Positions 15,625-22,588 of a stretch of DNA of 50,470 nt are shown here, in pieces; within the stretch, counting starts at the first letter, position 1, and every line of letters starts with the position of its first letter. The translations under genes and the position numbers were made by a program. The notes below the pieces were generated by a model. It worked only from the letters and a program-made list of their open reading frames with translations, searched no databases and was not told where the DNA came from. This DNA comes from Candidatus Adlerbacteria bacterium (GTDB lineage Bacteria > Patescibacteriota > Minisyncoccia > Phycocordibacterales > SBAW01), in the NCBI GenBank assembly GCA_903884345.1, contig CAISEE010000043.1, forward strand, positions 1 through 50,470. Reading direction: 5' to 3'.

Positions 15625-17451
15625 ATGATTCGCGAGACCATCGAACAAGCCATTCGTGCAGCCCTTGAGGAGCTCGGCGCCCCCGAGGTGTCGTTTGCGG
15701 TGGAGCGTCCGGGCGATATGGCGCATGGTGACTATGCGACCAACGTGGCGCTTGTCGCGGCCAAGAAACTCGGCAAGAATCCGCGAGAGGTAGCAGAGGC
15801 GATTCGTGAAAAACTCTCGCGCGCCGCGAACCATTCTTCCGAAAAGTCCTCGGATCTCCTTCCTGCGGAAGGCCAGACTTTTCTTCAGAATGGTTCGCTT
15901 CGCTTTGTCGATAAGGTAGAGATTGCTGGCCCGGGGTTCATCAACTTTTACCTAACCGACAAGGCGGTCAACGCGGCCATAGAAGAATCGATTACTGCGG
16001 GTCTCGCGTGGGGGAGTGCAGCGCGTCTCAAAGAGCGCTGGCTCATCGAGCACACGTCGCCTAACCCCAACAAGGCGATGCATATTGGGCACTTGCGCAA
16101 CAACATCACCGGCATGGCGATTGCGAACATTGCTGCTGTCTCGGGTGTTGAGGTGATTCGCGACTGCATCGACAATAATCGCGGCATTGCGATTGCCAAG
16201 CTCATGTGGGGCTATCTCAAATTTGCCCGACGCGACGGCGCAACAGACAAAGATGTCGCGTACTGGTTTGCGCATCAAGACGAGTGGAACAATCCGCAGA
16301 CGCTCGGCATGCGACCCGACCGCTTCGTCGACCAACTCTACGTACAAGGGTCCGAAGACTACGAGCATCACACCGAGTCGGCCTCGACAGTGCGCGCGAT
16401 GGTCGTCGCTTGGGAGACTGGCGACTCGGTCGTGCGTGCCCTTTGGCAGACAGTGCTCGACTACTCCTACGCGGGTCAAGCGATGACACTCGAGCGATTG
16501 GGTAACCGATGGGACCATGTATGGCACGAGCACGAGCACTACCAAGACGGGAAGGACCTCGTCGAAGCTGGTCTACAAAAAGGTATTTTCAAAAAGGCCG
16601 ACAACGGTGTTGCGGTCACTGACCTGGCCGCGTTTAATTTGCCCGACACGGTGCTCATGAAGTCAGACGGCACATCGCTCTACATTACTCAGGACTTGGC
16701 GCTCACACGATTGAAGCGGGAAAAGTTTCATCCCGACCGACTCTTTTGGGTGATTGGTCCCGAGCAGTCATTGGCCCTGAAGCAACTCTTCGCCTGCTGC
16801 GAGCAGTTGGGTATCGGCCACTTTGACGATTACACGCACATCTCGTACGGGTACATGAGCCTCAAGGGCGAGGGCAAGATGAGCTCGCGCAAGGGTACGG
16901 TAATCTACATCGACGACGTGCTCGACGCGGTCAAAGATGAAGTGCGCACGATTCTTTCCGCGCGCGAGGTTTCCCTTCGCGACCCAGAGCAGGTGGCCGA
17001 GCAGGTCGCGATCGGTGCGGTTAAATTTGGCATCCTCAAAGCGGGCCGCACGACCGACATCGCATTCGACGCTGCCGCAGCGGTGGATTTGCGCGGCGAC
17101 ACGGGGCCGTACCTGCAGTACACCTGTGTTCGTGCGCGCTCGGTGTTGGCTCGCGCGCATACAGAGGGGATAGACCCATCGCTTGATACATCGGCCGTAG
17201 CCGTCCCGTTGGGGCATGTGCTGCGCCAGTACCCCGAGGTGGTCTCGCTCGCGTTCGTCGAACTCGAACCCAGCCGCATCGCATCATATTTGCTCGAGCT
17301 TGCTGCGGCCTTCAATAGTTGGTACGCACAGGTCCATATTATGGATGGTACGAGCGCCGCTGCGCACAAACTTGCCCTGACCCAGGCAACCGCACAAACG
17401 ATTGAAAATGGCCTGGCACTGCTCGGCATCCCAGTCCCCGAGGAGATGTAA
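15625..17451 (+). CDS. argS: arginyl-tRNA synthetase
   Basis: 608 residues. N-terminal Add-1 domain (about 1-110), HTSPNPNKAMHIGHLRNN with HIGH at 153-156, KMSS at 418-421 (GKMSSRKGTVIYIDD), and a C-terminal helical anticodon domain ending ALLGIPVPEEM. It charges tRNA-Arg. The Add-1 domain holds an extra segment of about 24 residues (NHSSEKSS...LLPAEGQTFL) that is encoded by a nested palindrome (15826-15898), apparently inserted in frame where homologues go straight from the IREKL helix to the VDKVEIAGPGFIN strand. TGTAGT lies 9 nt before the ATG. Confidence 0.96.
   Translation: MIRETIEQAIRAALEELGAPEVSFAVERPGDMAHGDYATNVALVAAKKLGKNPREVAEAIREKLSRAANHSSEKSSDLLPAEGQTFLQNGSLRFVDKVEIAGPGFINFYLTDKAVNAAIEESITAGLAWGSAARLKERWLIEHTSPNPNKAMHIGHLRNNITGMAIANIAAVSGVEVIRDCIDNNRGIAIAKLMWGYLKFARRDGATDKDVAYWFAHQDEWNNPQTLGMRPDRFVDQLYVQGSEDYEHHTESASTVRAMVVAWETGDSVVRALWQTVLDYSYAGQAMTLERLGNRWDHVWHEHEHYQDGKDLVEAGLQKGIFKKADNGVAVTDLAAFNLPDTVLMKSDGTSLYITQDLALTRLKREKFHPDRLFWVIGPEQSLALKQLFACCEQLGIGHFDDYTHISYGYMSLKGEGKMSSRKGTVIYIDDVLDAVKDEVRTILSAREVSLRDPEQVAEQVAIGAVKFGILKAGRTTDIAFDAAAAVDLRGDTGPYLQYTCVRARSVLARAHTEGIDPSLDTSAVAVPLGHVLRQYPEVVSLAFVELEPSRIASYLLELAAAFNSWYAQVHIMDGTSAAAHKLALTQATAQTIENGLALLGIPVPEEM
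15826..15898. repeat. palindromic element inside argS coding sequence
   Basis: 23-nt arms (15826-15848 and 15876-15898) match at 20 of 23 positions as an inverted repeat, beginning GCGAACCATTCTTCC and ending GAATGGTTCGC. The centre holds a second hairpin CCTTCC TGC GGAAGG. The reading frame is kept through all 73 nt. This resembles the in-frame palindromic elements described in Rickettsia, by form only. Confidence 0.7.
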
Positions 17452-17483: not shown

Positions 17484-18071
17484 ATGAAGTCAGTCCGCAT
17501 TATTTTGCTCACGCTCATAATCCTCGGTCTCGGCGCAATCGCGACCGAGCGCTTGTGGGTGCCGGGGTTGGTGGCGCAGAAAGTAAAAAAGGAGCAAACT
17601 CCACAGGAGTCTGACGTCGTTCGGAAAGAAAACCAAAAAAGCGGCAATAGAAACGTGGTGTTCGACACGGACTCGTTGTCGCATACCTGCGCCTCGAGTG
17701 CGGGTGATGCGAACATTGGTCTGTATCAATTTGAGGAGTCACCTCTTACGTCCGGCAGCGACGAGACGTTAACCTATGTACTGTGCATCGAAGGGTCTGG
17801 GCCAAACTACACGGGTCGCTTGGCGATTGATGGATTTCAGACGCTTACCAGGATGTACGTGACGGCTTCGTTGATTGGTAACGGGTTACGCGTGAATTTT
17901 GACCATTACGCTGCAAACGACGTTCATTACGAGGTTATTCCAATAGCAGGCACTGAGCTTTTCTCCATCGACACAGTGCATCAAAACAAGATTATCTGGG
18001 GTTGGTTCTCGCCGATGGTTACTTCATCAGCAAGCGCCACAACTGCGTTCATGCGACACATTAGAAAGTAA
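17484..18071 (+). CDS. membrane-anchored hypothetical protein (DUF5991-like)
   Basis: 195 residues: an N-terminal membrane segment (VRIILLTLIILGLGAIATE), a charged linker, then an outer domain with GLYQFEESPLT, LTYVLCIEGSG, IDGFQTLTRMYVTA and NGLRVNFDHYA. The spacing YxFEES...YxLxI...GFQTxxR...LxVxFxxY resembles DUF5991-type lipocalin-like domains, a tentative match. TATACT at 17472-17477 is 7 nt before the ATG. Two cysteines (C69, C92 approx.) may pair. Confidence 0.6.
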   Translation: MKSVRIILLTLIILGLGAIATERLWVPGLVAQKVKKEQTPQESDVVRKENQKSGNRNVVFDTDSLSHTCASSAGDANIGLYQFEESPLTSGSDETLTYVLCIEGSGPNYTGRLAIDGFQTLTRMYVTASLIGNGLRVNFDHYAANDVHYEVIPIAGTELFSIDTVHQNKIIWGWFSPMVTSSASATTAFMRHIRK

Positions 18072-18473: not shown

Positions 18474-21400
18474 ATGTTGGACACCAAGGATCAGGGTGGG
18501 GAGGAGAAGCCGGGGGTCGAACTCAAAGCGAAGGGGCCGCTGGCGGCGCGCGAGGAGGTCGTGCTCGATTTTTGGAACAAGGAGCGCATCTTTGAGAAGT
18601 CGCTCGAGCGACCGGCACCCAAGGGTGAGTACGTCTTTTACGACGGGCCACCATTTGCGACCGGGCTCCCGCACTACGGGCACCTGTTGCAGAGCACCAT
18701 CAAAGACGCCATCCCGCGCTACCGCACCATGCGGGGCTTTCGCGTGTCGCGCCGCTGGGGTTGGGACTGCCACGGGTTGCCGCTCGAGAATCAAATCGAG
18801 AAGGAGTTGGGTTTCAAGACCAAGCGCGACATCGAGGAGTACGGCATCGAGAAGTTCAACCTCGCGGCCAAGAGCACGGTCTTGCGCTACGCCGACGAGT
18901 GGAAGCGCATCGTCCCACGCATCGGCCGTTGGGTCGACATGGAGGACGATTACAAGACCATGGACTCGACCTACACCGAGTCGGTCTGGTGGGCCTTCAA
19001 GTCGCTGTTTGATAAGGGGCTCATCTATGAGGGCTTCAAGGCGATGCATTTTTGCCCGCGCTGCGGCACCACACTTTCCAACAACGAGGTGGCGCTGGGC
19101 TACCAGGACATTCCCGACCTTTCGGTCACGGTGAAGCTGCCTTTGGTCGACGAACCCGAGACCTCGCTCTTGGCCTGGACCACGACGCCGTGGACGCTTC
19201 CCGGCAATGCCGCAGCCGCGGTTAATCCCGAGGCGACCTACGTCAAAGCACGCACCGAGGCGGGCTTCGTCATCGTGGCAAAAGAACTCGCCGAGAAAGT
19301 CTTGGGCGAGAATCCGCGCATCCACGAAGAGATGCTGGGCAAGGCGCTGGTGGGCCGCCGCTACGAGCCGCCATTTGCGTACTTCAAAGACATGCTCCAC
19401 AAGCACAAGACCCACGCGTGGAAGGTCTACGCGGGGGACTTTGTGACGCTCTCGGATGGTACCGGCATCGTCCACATCGCACCCGCCTTCGGTGAGGACG
19501 ACCTTAAGTTGGCCGAGGCCGAGAAGATTCCGCTCATCCACCACGTGAATGACGAGGGCAAATTCGTCGCGGCCGTGACCGATTTGGTGGGGCTCCCCGT
19601 CAAACCGAAAGGGCGCCACATGGAGACAGATGCCAAAGTTATCGAGCTCCTGAAGGAGAATGGTCGCCTGTTTGCCAGCGAGAAAATCACGCACTCCTAC
19701 CCGCACTGCTGGCGCTGCGACACGCCGCTGCTTAACTGGGCGTCCAACTCATGGTTCGTGAAAGTCTCGGCGCTGAAATCCAAACTCCTGGCCGAAAATA
19801 AAAAAGTGTCGTGGGTGCCCTCGCACGTGGGGCAGGGGCGGTTCAATAACCTCATCGAGTCGGCACCCGATTGGGCGATCTCACGCAGCCGCTACTGGGG
19901 CGCGCCGATTCCGGTGTGGCGCCATAGTCAGACCAAAGAACTCAAAGTCATCGGCTCGGTCGAGGAGCTCTTGGCGCTCGCGCGTCGCTCGGGTAACCAC
20001 TACGTCGTGATGCGCCATGGGCAGGCGCGCAGCAACGTCGAAGGCTTCGTCAACTCGACCAACGAAATCGAGAACCACCTCACCGCAGCAGGGAAGGAAG
20101 AGGTGCTAAAGAGCGCCGCCGAGATGCGGGGGCTCGGGATCGACCTCATCGTTGCCTCGCCGATAACGCGCACGCAAGAAACCGCGCGCCTCGTGGCAGA
20201 AGAACTGGGCGTCCCCGCGTCGGCCATCATGACCGATGTGCGCCTCTCGGAGATTCACTTCGGCGAGAAGGATGGTGCGCCGATCGAGGAGTGGGAAGGG
20301 CTCTTTGCGACACTTTCGGACCGATTCAACAAAACCTTCGTGGGCGGCGAGACGTACGCCCAGGTGCGCGCTCGCGTGGCCGACTTCCTCTCCGACATCG
20401 AGCGCCGCTACAGCGGCAAGCGCATCTTGATCGTGACCCATGCGGCACCCGCGTGGCTCCTGTCGGAGTTCGCACAACGATCGACCCATGCCGACATGCA
20501 TGCCCGCGCGCATCGCGGCACCTTGCACCAGACGGCACAGTGGTCGGAAATTGATTTTACGCCGTACCCGCACAACAAAGAGGGCGACCTCGATTTGCAC
20601 CGCCCCTACATCGACCAGCTTGCGCTCGGCGACTCGCTTTCGGGGCAGTGGGAGCGCGTCTCGGACGTCTTTGACTGCTGGTTTGAGTCGGGCTCGATGC
20701 CCTTCGCCTCGGCGCACTACCCGTTTAAGAAGGAGACCTTCGATCCCAAACATCTGCTTGGTTTCAAACCCAAAGGATTTCCGGCAAGCTTCATCGCCGA
20801 GGGTATCGACCAGACGCGTGGGTGGTTCTACTCGATGATCGTCTTGGGTGTGGGGCTTTTTGGCAAGGCGTCGTATGAGGCGGTGGTGACCAACGGTATG
20901 GTCTTAGCCGAGGACGGGCGCAAGATGAGCAAGAAGCTCAAGAACTATCCCGATCCGATGGAATTGGTCGAGAAGTATGGCGCGGATTCGCTACGCTACT
21001 ACATCCTCTCGTCCACCGTCATTCGTGGTGAAGACCTGCGCTTCTCGGCCCGCGGGGTCGAGGAAGTATCAAAGAAGCTCCTTATGCGCCTGGACAACGT
21101 GCGCTCGTTCTACGACCTCTACGCCAATGGGACGCCGCGCGCCAACACCAGCACGCATGTGCTCGACCGCTGGATTCTCTCGCGCCTCAGCGAGCTTGTG
21201 CGCGACACGACCGCCGGCTTCGAGCGCTACGAGCTTGATGTCGCGACGCGCCCTTTGGCCGCGTTCATCGACGACCTCTCGACCTGGTACCTGCGCCGCT
21301 CGCGCGATCGCTTTAAGCAAGACGGCGAGGACCCCTCGACTACGCTCGGGGCAGGTAAAACGGCTGCGTTGGCCACCCTGCGCTACGTGCTCTTTACGGC

Positions 21401-22007
21401 CTCTCAGGTCATGGCGCCGGTCCTGCCGTTCTTTGCCGATGACCTCTACCTGCGCGTCAAAGAAGTGGGGGACAAGGAAAGCGTGCACCTGTGCGACTGG
21501 CCCGAGGCGCTCTTTATCGACGAGGATTTGCACACACAAATGGCAACAACCCGCTCGATCGTCTCTCTGGCGCTTGAGGCGCGCGAAGCGTCGGGCATTA
21601 AAATCCGCCAGCCGCTGGGGCTTCTTGAACTCAAAGCCGCGCCCACCAACGTCGAATTCTTCCCGCTCATCGCCGACGAGGTCAACGTGCGTGAGGTGCG
21701 CGAAAATGCCGAACTGTCTGACGCAATCAAACTTGATGTGACGCTCACGCCCGAGTTGCGCGAGGCGGGCACCTTGCGCGAGGTGGTGCGTGCCGTGCAG
21801 GAGTTTCGCAAGCAAGAGAAGCTCTCGATCGGCGATCGACCGAAGCTGCATGTGGTGACCTCTCCCACGGGACAGGATTTCCTGCACAAGCACACCGACG
21901 TCGTGTGTCGCGAGACCAACCTTGCCTCGCTCACCGTTTCACTCGCGCAAGATGAGGTCGCCTCGAGCGAGTCGCTCTTCCCGATGCGGTTTCACCTCGA
22001 GCGCTGA
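18474..22007 (+). CDS. ileS: isoleucyl-tRNA synthetase with an inserted histidine-phosphatase domain
   Basis: 1177 residues, about 200 more than the usual form. Catalytic HYGH at 67-70, editing domain after it, SRSRYWGAPIPVW at about 470-480, DCWFESGSMPF at 734, GIDQTRGWFYSM, KMSKK at 817-821 and a C-terminal anticodon domain. Between 480 and 734 a complete histidine-phosphatase domain is inserted: YVVMRHGQARSN (R514, H515), SPITRTQETA (R566), LSEIHFGEKDG (E593) and ILIVTHAAP (H656). The cysteine pairs that normally flank this point (PVWKCxxCG and the pair after DLHRPYID) are missing (PVWRHSQTKE, LALGDSLSGQ). A short repeat lies at 21332-21351. TATAGT is 9 nt upstream; the stop overlaps recO. 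Confidence 0.95.
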   Translation: MLDTKDQGGEEKPGVELKAKGPLAAREEVVLDFWNKERIFEKSLERPAPKGEYVFYDGPPFATGLPHYGHLLQSTIKDAIPRYRTMRGFRVSRRWGWDCHGLPLENQIEKELGFKTKRDIEEYGIEKFNLAAKSTVLRYADEWKRIVPRIGRWVDMEDDYKTMDSTYTESVWWAFKSLFDKGLIYEGFKAMHFCPRCGTTLSNNEVALGYQDIPDLSVTVKLPLVDEPETSLLAWTTTPWTLPGNAAAAVNPEATYVKARTEAGFVIVAKELAEKVLGENPRIHEEMLGKALVGRRYEPPFAYFKDMLHKHKTHAWKVYAGDFVTLSDGTGIVHIAPAFGEDDLKLAEAEKIPLIHHVNDEGKFVAAVTDLVGLPVKPKGRHMETDAKVIELLKENGRLFASEKITHSYPHCWRCDTPLLNWASNSWFVKVSALKSKLLAENKKVSWVPSHVGQGRFNNLIESAPDWAISRSRYWGAPIPVWRHSQTKELKVIGSVEELLALARRSGNHYVVMRHGQARSNVEGFVNSTNEIENHLTAAGKEEVLKSAAEMRGLGIDLIVASPITRTQETARLVAEELGVPASAIMTDVRLSEIHFGEKDGAPIEEWEGLFATLSDRFNKTFVGGETYAQVRARVADFLSDIERRYSGKRILIVTHAAPAWLLSEFAQRSTHADMHARAHRGTLHQTAQWSEIDFTPYPHNKEGDLDLHRPYIDQLALGDSLSGQWERVSDVFDCWFESGSMPFASAHYPFKKETFDPKHLLGFKPKGFPASFIAEGIDQTRGWFYSMIVLGVGLFGKASYEAVVTNGMVLAEDGRKMSKKLKNYPDPMELVEKYGADSLRYYILSSTVIRGEDLRFSARGVEEVSKKLLMRLDNVRSFYDLYANGTPRANTSTHVLDRWILSRLSELVRDTTAGFERYELDVATRPLAAFIDDLSTWYLRRSRDRFKQDGEDPSTTLGAGKTAALATLRYVLFTASQVMAPVLPFFADDLYLRVKEVGDKESVHLCDWPEALFIDEDLHTQMATTRSIVSLALEAREASGIKIRQPLGLLELKAAPTNVEFFPLIADEVNVREVRENAELSDAIKLDVTLTPELREAGTLREVVRAVQEFRKQEKLSIGDRPKLHVVTSPTGQDFLHKHTDVVCRETNLASLTVSLAQDEVASSESLFPMRFHLER
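21332..21351. repeat. short dispersed-type repeat inside ileS
   Basis: CCCCTCGACTACGCTCGGGG has CCCC/GGGG ends. Its reverse strand reads as CPERSRG in translation, a peptide I recall from many genomes as the trace of a common dispersed repeat. Here it encodes DPSTTLGAG between RFKQDGE and KTAALATLRYVL, where homologues have a shorter loop. Family membership is from memory. Confidence 0.5.
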
Positions 22008-22588
22008 TGCACCGGATCGTCGCAACCGAAGGGGTGGTCTTGCGCAAGCGAGGGGTCGGCGAGGCCAACACCCTGGTCGCCATCCTCTCGCTGGAGCTGG
22101 GGCTCGTGCGTGCCTCGGCCCGCTCGGCGCGCCTGGCCAAATCGAAGCTTCGCTACGGGCTCGAGACCATGACCGAGGGTCGCTTTTCGTTGGTCAAAGG
22201 TCGCTATGAGTGGAAGGTCGTCGGCGTCGAGCGTCTCTCGCGCGAGGGGCTCGCGCAATCGGCCGCATCGCGGCGTGCCTTCGGTCGCGTCGCGCGACTC
22301 CTCCTGCGTCTCATCCATGGCGAGGAACCCGTGCCTGCCCTCTACCACTGCGTGCGTGCGGGCTTTGCGGCGCTGGCCGAGGCATCGAGCGAGTCGCTGG
22401 TTGAGCACATCGAGTGCGTGCTCGTGCTGCGCATCCTCGCGCACTTGGGTTACGTGCCGCACCATGCGGCGCTTCAGCCGTTTGTCGACGATGACCAGTA
22501 CGGGCCCGAGCTTGTGGCTGCTGCCGCAGCCACGCGAGCGCTCCTCATTCGGACCATCAACGAGTCTTTGGGTGCCACAGGCCTCTAA
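22007..22588 (+). CDS. recO: DNA repair protein RecO, reduced form
   Basis: 193 residues, shorter than the usual 240. The N-terminal OB fold is clear: TEGVVLRKRGVGEANTLVAI, LGLVRASARSARLAKSKLRY, then a helical domain (ASSESLVEHIECVLVLRILA). The zinc-finger cysteines of classic RecO are absent. RecO helps load RecA on SSB-coated DNA; recA and ssb are also in this window. ATGA overlap with ileS indicates translational coupling. Confidence 0.82.
   Translation: MHRIVATEGVVLRKRGVGEANTLVAILSLELGLVRASARSARLAKSKLRYGLETMTEGRFSLVKGRYEWKVVGVERLSREGLAQSAASRRAFGRVARLLLRLIHGEEPVPALYHCVRAGFAALAEASSESLVEHIECVLVLRILAHLGYVPHHAALQPFVDDDQYGPELVAAAAATRALLIRTINESLGATGL

Follow-up and report, generated by a model that had tools for sequence, protein, structure and literature searches.

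The window (the whole stretch analysed, 50,470 nucleotides of contig CAISEE010000043.1 from Candidatus Adlerbacteria) carries, in this order, argS, two small ORFs, ileS, and a recO-like gene, and the ileS reading frame encodes an isoleucyl-tRNA synthetase that is interrupted by a histidine-phosphatase domain. One of the two small ORFs between argS and ileS (17484-18071) matches DUF5991 (2e-8) and is hydrophobic near its N terminus. The features of the locus are listed below in window coordinates, with the basis of each in parentheses; site 1 is the insertion site found in the window.

15625..17451, + strand: argS, upstream in the conserved argS-ileS order (Pfam)
18474..22007, + strand: ileS, isoleucyl-tRNA synthetase (type 2) with inserted phosphatase, 1177 aa
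18672..18683, + strand: HYGH, the class I HIGH motif, residues 67-70 (translation)
19053..19064, + strand: first zinc site, first Cys pair (C194-x2-C197), intact (translation; nearly invariant across 28 fusions)
19707..19718, + strand: first zinc site, second Cys pair (C412-x2-C415), intact (translation; invariant across 28 fusions)
19881..19919, + strand: SRSRYWGAPIPVW block, the final conserved synthetase block ahead of the insert (alignment of 88 IleS)
19992..20573, + strand: inserted histidine-phosphatase domain, residues ~507-700 (PF00300; AlphaFold segment model)
20013..20021, + strand: RHG, residues 514-516, with the putative nucleophile H515 (R and H in 75/75 site-1 domains)
20169..20171, + strand: R566, second phosphate-binding arginine (75/75 site-1 domains)
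20250..20252, + strand: E593, putative general acid (73/75 site-1 domains)
20439..20441, + strand: H656, second catalytic histidine (75/75 site-1 domains)
20592..20685, + strand: DLHRPYID to DVFDCWF, where the synthetase resumes; second Cys pair missing (alignment of 88 IleS)
20922..20936, + strand: KMSKK, the class I KMSKS motif, residues 817-821 (translation)
22007..22588, + strand: recO-like gene directly 3' of ileS (PF11967, 2.6e-11)

The synthetase parts of the protein are those of a complete enzyme. The NCBIfam ileS model TIGR00392 scores 864.8 bits against a cut-off of 621.4, with a match in two pieces that flank the insert, and the Pfam tRNA-synt_1 match is broken in two by His_Phos_1. 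A CP1 editing domain (residues 208-411, matching 1wk8) and an anticodon domain (PF08264, residues 898-1048) are both present. When the whole-protein model was compared with known structures (Foldseek), it was assigned to the type 2 IleRS, with 8c8v as the best match (E 4.7e-72). Like the type 2 (eukaryote-like) enzymes Priestia megaterium IleRS2 (8c8v) and Thermus thermophilus IleRS (1ile), to which it is ~30-34% identical over the alignment, the window protein has all the catalytic and editing parts and the first zinc site. Unlike both, it has a domain of ~195 residues in place of about six (between 1ile 481 and 488) and lacks the four cysteines of the second zinc knuckle. A previous reading made from the sequence alone had described a phosphatase inside an otherwise intact IleS, with HYGH and KMSKK in place, and this was borne out, the first zinc site being intact as well. 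The window ORF is the sole ileS of its genome (the remaining matches are ValS, LeuS, and smaller genes), and because the gene is single copy, we infer that the fused enzyme must charge tRNA(Ile).

The insert is in frame, with SRSRYWG on one side and DLHRPYID on the other, and in 1ile numbering it falls between residues 481 and 488, that is, between both cysteine pairs of the second zinc knuckle. Pfam places PF00300 (His_Phos_1) at residues 511-696 (E 8.4e-30, 104.3 bits against a gathering cut-off of 21.7), and the foreign-looking segment extends to about residue 706 (window 20591). The residue numbers given by the sequence-only reading for a full phosphatase (RHG 514-516, R566, E593, H656) proved exact, and the structure prediction that it called for returned a phosphatase fold. 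Modeled by itself with AlphaFold, the segment from residue 470 to 740 reached a pLDDT of 89.8 and a pTM of 0.87, while 28 full-length fusions gave a mean pLDDT of 78.8 and a pTM of 0.63, with ~90 averaged across residues 511-700. The segment model matched the phosphoserine phosphatase PspA (4ij6; Z 23.2, rmsd 2.5 over 183 residues), Rv2419c (4qih; Z 22.4), PhoE (1h2e; Z 22.0), and CobC (6e4b; Z 20.4). These are phosphatase-type members of the superfamily, although a fold in common does not by itself indicate the substrate. The domain is thus like histidine phosphatase branch 1 in its fold (Z 20-23) and catalytic residues, but unlike PspA, Rv2419c, PhoE, and CobC, it is built into a synthetase, is only 22-24% identical to them over the aligned parts, and falls under every NCBIfam equivalog cut-off. 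The search with the NCBIfam phosphatase and mutase equivalogs (CobC, PspA, dPGM, SixA, and others) gave 18 matches, all of them below cut-off (the best, 80 bits against 326).

Conservation of the active site was examined in 128 domains, 75 of them at site 1. R514, H515, R566, E593, and H656 are all intact in 73 of the 75, and seven columns are 100% invariant at site 1, while in the average column the commonest residue is found in just 45% of the sequences; the domains were collected by profile, which favors intact copies, and the invariance is perhaps somewhat overstated. This pattern in the alignment argues for selection on catalysis over a scaffold role. In an Adlerbacteria relative (RYN_384, L010:4008-7451), the phosphatase is ~30 residues shorter between E593 and E626 (window numbering) and the catalytic residues remain.

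The sequence-only reading had allowed that the same fusion might be annotated in related genomes of the CPR, and it is indeed widespread there. We scanned GTDB species genomes and obtained 80 IleS loci, more than 30 of them with the same insert and nearly all of these from Patescibacteria (CPR), occurrence outside the CPR being judged solely on the non-CPR loci among those 80. One such locus, on a contig labeled Spirochaetia (L024), holds a CPR-type fusion that groups with CPR sequences (Wolfebacteria) and is probably misbinned. Within the order to which the window belongs, we surveyed 60 genomes and recovered ileS in 58, and the domain lies inside IleS in 54 of them (53 plus G395, whose ileS leaves its contig within the domain); the four IleS without it are those of G400, G406, G428, and G429. 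The fusion is the sole PF00300 protein in 20 of the 60 genomes. Among 145 genomes drawn evenly from the CPR, ileS was matched in 132 and interrupted at the same site in 20, including all nine genomes of the class of the window. None of seven IleS-like loci on viral contigs has the phosphatase, and a viral origin was rejected for that reason. The misassembly that would have undone the sequence-only reading is excluded, since the same in-frame layout occurs in dozens of independent assemblies, single-contig genomes among them; we found no point in favor of an assembly or binning artifact and give this explanation practically no weight.

The insert bears on the second zinc knuckle, formed by two cysteine pairs around the DLHRP block, which is a common but not strictly defining feature of IleS. 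In the alignment of 88 IleS, the first pair, expected directly after the SRSRYWGAPIPVW block, is missing from the window protein, which is without all four cysteines. The sequence-only reading was right that both pairs are gone, and it proposed from this that the new domain replaces the zinc ribbon as a structural substitute. There is something to be said for the proposal: besides the window, 39 other fusions are without both pairs, and the loss of both is commoner with the domain than without it (40/69 against 12/40, Fisher p 0.006, relatedness ignored). Nevertheless, both pairs are retained in 29 of the 79 IleS with the domain (both are lost in 40, window included), and among 50 IleS without the domain, 28 keep both pairs and 12 have lost both. 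The IleS of G400 (which is of the general type of the window) and of G406 have neither phosphatase nor cysteines. Because 29 fusions keep the knuckle and these two IleS lack both domain and cysteines, the loss of the cysteines is neither needed for the insertion nor confined to insertion-bearing IleS. An invariant catalytic site would, moreover, be superfluous for a scaffold. Replacement of the ribbon is thus already contradicted as a general rule, and we regard it as a very improbable reason for the presence of the domain. Since the insert sits between both pairs, it breaks into the knuckle and is not a stand-in for it.

The phosphatase and the synthetase around it have separate histories. 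We compared a tree of the 128 phosphatase domains with a tree of 120 IleS bodies from which the insert had been removed. The window phosphatase falls within a class-wide clade of 58 domains (support 94/82), while on well-supported branches of the body tree the inserted state must have changed ten times or more. The phosphatases of L100, L107, L101, and L111 group together (100/96), yet the IleS bodies that house them are of three well-separated kinds, and constraining these bodies together was rejected (AU p 1.2e-77). Likewise, the cassette, with a PHNxxYELDLHRPYID-like tail, is found in L099 and L104, even though their bodies belong to a Kaiserbacteria-type IleS that is otherwise free of the domain (the two halves of L104 share 76% and 69% identity with those of L046). 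The same conflict is found in the genus of the window, where the phosphatase of G431 is 50% identical to that of the window and joins it together with L009 (99/90), but the bodies of G431 and the window share only 49% identity in the N-terminal part and 45% in the C-terminal part. The G431 body is instead sister (support 99) to the body of G223, from another family, with 67% (N-terminal) and 53% (C-terminal) identity, while the G223 and G431 phosphatases are just 38% identical. Grouping the bodies of the window, L009, L010, and G431 in one clade was rejected (AU p 6e-63), and joining the G431 and G223 phosphatases was rejected more weakly (p 0.022); the groups had been picked after the phosphatase tree was seen, although the tests were run on body data and their margins are large. 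A single insertion followed by simple descent is rejected by this conflict. Because the two trees disagree, the phosphatase has stayed with the organism while the surrounding synthetase was replaced, either because the cassette moved into the new ileS or because recombination took place on both sides of it.

When the domain is missing from IleS, a free-standing homolog is usually found just upstream of ileS. In L062 and L068 (Staskawiczbacteria), G349, and G274, a gene of ~200 aa belonging to this phosphatase subfamily adjoins an uninterrupted ileS, with argS immediately upstream of it where the contig covers that side (L068, G349, G274). One ORF separates the two genes in L063, and in G332 the phosphatase gene lies between argS and ileS with a gap of ~0.9 kb. 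Overall, six of the seven closest free-standing domains (those scoring at least 150 bits) are located at ileS, either in the argS-ileS interval or immediately ahead of ileS, and mostly adjoin it. The subfamily is not strictly exclusive to this neighborhood, given that the free-standing relative in G174 (160 bits) had no ileS near it in the 12 kb that were read; the lower-scoring free-standing phosphatases that we checked (G036, G054, G257, G374) are not at ileS.

Other enzymes are inserted in CPR synthetases as well. Peribacteria-type IleS often have two phosphatases, one on each side of the DLHK block, and ValS of several CPR families have one or two; further inserts in IleS and ValS are Nudix, HAD, GNAT, and RBBP9-like Ser_hydrolase (alpha/beta-hydrolase) domains. 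In 14 LeuS, picked for their length or split matches and hence not a random sample, we found NUDIX in eight, Ser_hydrolase in five, Ham1 in one, and HAD in one. Among individual cases, the IleS of G243 (L119:867-5582, 1572 aa) carries a histidine-phosphatase domain in each of three loops, including the anticodon-domain linker, and its middle phosphatase has D where the catalytic E is expected. In the IleS of G046 (L120:1338-5399), a GNAT acetyltransferase is inserted and a phosphatase occupies the anticodon-domain linker. The IleS of G281 (L135:3-4472) combines Ser_hydrolase, Nudix, and phosphatase, and the ValS of G229 (L121:27-3857) combines HAD, Ser_hydrolase, and phosphatase. In four CPR LeuS (L187, L189, L191, L192), a Nudix domain is inserted in or near the editing region, some of them with a second, RBBP9-like hydrolase and L192 with an additional Ham1/ITPase-like insert. 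The ValS L122 and L123 have the phosphatase at another loop, after DxLDTWFSSG...GWP, and since their domains pair with those of the IleS L027 and L114 in the domain tree (86/94), they hint at an exchange of phosphatase between ValS and IleS.

Extra enzyme domains on IleS are thus not without precedent. NCBIfam includes a model for an isoleucine--tRNA ligase with an N-acetyltransferase domain (NF040702, ileS_w_GNAT), and the general kind of arrangement is already known to curators in this form. Its added enzyme is, however, a GNAT and not a phosphatase: the window protein scores 318.8 bits against the cut-off of 1999 and has no Pfam GNAT match. A second parallel is the bifunctional RNase H / acid phosphatase (PRK07238 family, NF005567), in which a histidine phosphatase is fused to a nucleic-acid enzyme, and NF005567 is the best NCBIfam match of the window domain (1.8e-22, under cut-off). 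That fusion is end-to-end, without insertion, and does not involve a synthetase. The sequence-only reading knew of no description of an IleS-phosphatase fusion, and our full-text literature search (preprints and most subscription papers lay outside its scope) found none either, although the NCBIfam model above is a recognized precedent for an added enzyme. Synthetases are treated as hosts of editing domains in one survey of domain insertions (PMC13114784), which makes no mention of phosphatases. Given the scope of the literature search, we consider the novelty of the fusion provisional.

We propose that the protein is bifunctional, combining a working type 2 IleRS with a phosphatase of the CobC/PhoE/PspA type that is competent for catalysis and sits in the loop of the second zinc knuckle. 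Members of the histidine phosphatase superfamily act on phosphate monoesters by a phospho-histidine mechanism, and by analogy the inserted domain would hydrolyze its substrate through a phospho-H515 intermediate. The domain would be a working phosphatase selected in its own right and retained for an activity best carried out on or near IleRS, or in a fixed ratio to it, a proposal in which we have moderate confidence. The likeliest substrates would be small phosphorylated compounds that the synthetase encounters (a nucleotide or some other by-product of the activation of amino acids), and a phosphate on tRNA or on IleRS itself would be less likely. Incoming ileS genes would repeatedly have been given the cassette at the same loop, or would have recombined around it.

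The principal alternative is that the phosphatase performs an unrelated housekeeping task and IleRS is only its vehicle, the loop of an essential and always expressed gene guarding it against deletion and ensuring its expression in a shrinking genome. The many unrelated enzymes inserted in CPR LeuRS, IleRS, and ValRS, the presence of up to three phosphatases in one IleS, and the 20 genomes of the order in which the fusion is the sole histidine phosphatase make this a real though less probable possibility. It does not account easily for the non-random position of the nearest free-standing relatives, mostly beside ileS, or for the use of the same loop again after the body was swapped. Because free copies are placed at ileS and the domain returns repeatedly to the same loop, we favor a tethered activity, that is, house-cleaning or quality control on a small phosphorylated molecule (which we hold about evenly balanced), over a mere carrier role (which we hold only tentatively); the two are not firmly separated. 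Some observations count against a tethered phosphatase: the domain is dispensable, since the IleS of G400, G406, G428, and G429 do without it, and G174 keeps its free-standing relative away from ileS. The unrelated enzymes in other CPR synthetases also suggest permissive loops as much as specific coupling.

A further alternative is an insertion into a permissive loop, kept mainly through history and recombination, with tether and activity of little selective value. Several loops do accept inserts and four genomes of the order lack the domain, but an active site intact in 73 of 75 site-1 domains despite a mean column conservation of 45%, in a domain that survived replacement of the body, makes this rather improbable. 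We also considered that the domain could be the missing phosphoglycerate mutase of glycolysis, given that the NCBIfam dPGM_arch model is among its best sub-threshold matches and that a cofactor-independent mutase was found in only 13 of the 60 genomes. However, 15 of the 20 genomes in which the fusion is the sole PF00300 protein have no enolase match, and the genome of the window has a separate candidate mutase in one of its two free-standing PF00300 genes, near enolase on contig C26. After the surveys of iPGM and enolase, such a role was judged very unlikely.

Extra domains in synthetases are known, but the literature searched gave no description of an intact, unrelated enzyme that lies in the middle of an essential synthetase, persists through much of a large bacterial class, and is inherited apart from its host. 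The fusion occurs in many ultra-small uncultured bacteria, and retention of the phosphatase after a swap for a foreign synthetase suggests that it has a real job. The fusion points to an activity that removes phosphate and is linked to translation in bacteria whose genomes are very small, and it offers a direct route to that activity through a single gene with one predicted catalytic histidine, for which relatives with and without the domain serve as natural controls. The parallel Nudix, HAD, Ham1, GNAT, and hydrolase inserts in CPR LeuRS, IleRS, and ValRS suggest a general pattern. It is conceivable, though we put it forward as speculation, that the editing synthetases of the CPR (IleRS, ValRS, LeuRS) are carriers of detachable, transferable hydrolase cassettes, and that the IleRS phosphatase would perform a conserved reaction linked to isoleucylation, for instance removal of a phosphorylated by-product or repair of a tRNA or synthetase blocked by a phosphate, and would be re-installed whenever the synthetase is replaced by horizontal transfer. 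In other CPR genomes, histidine phosphatases were also seen at the ends of apparent DedA-type and MFS-type membrane proteins (L137:2273-3658 and L206:1685-3556).
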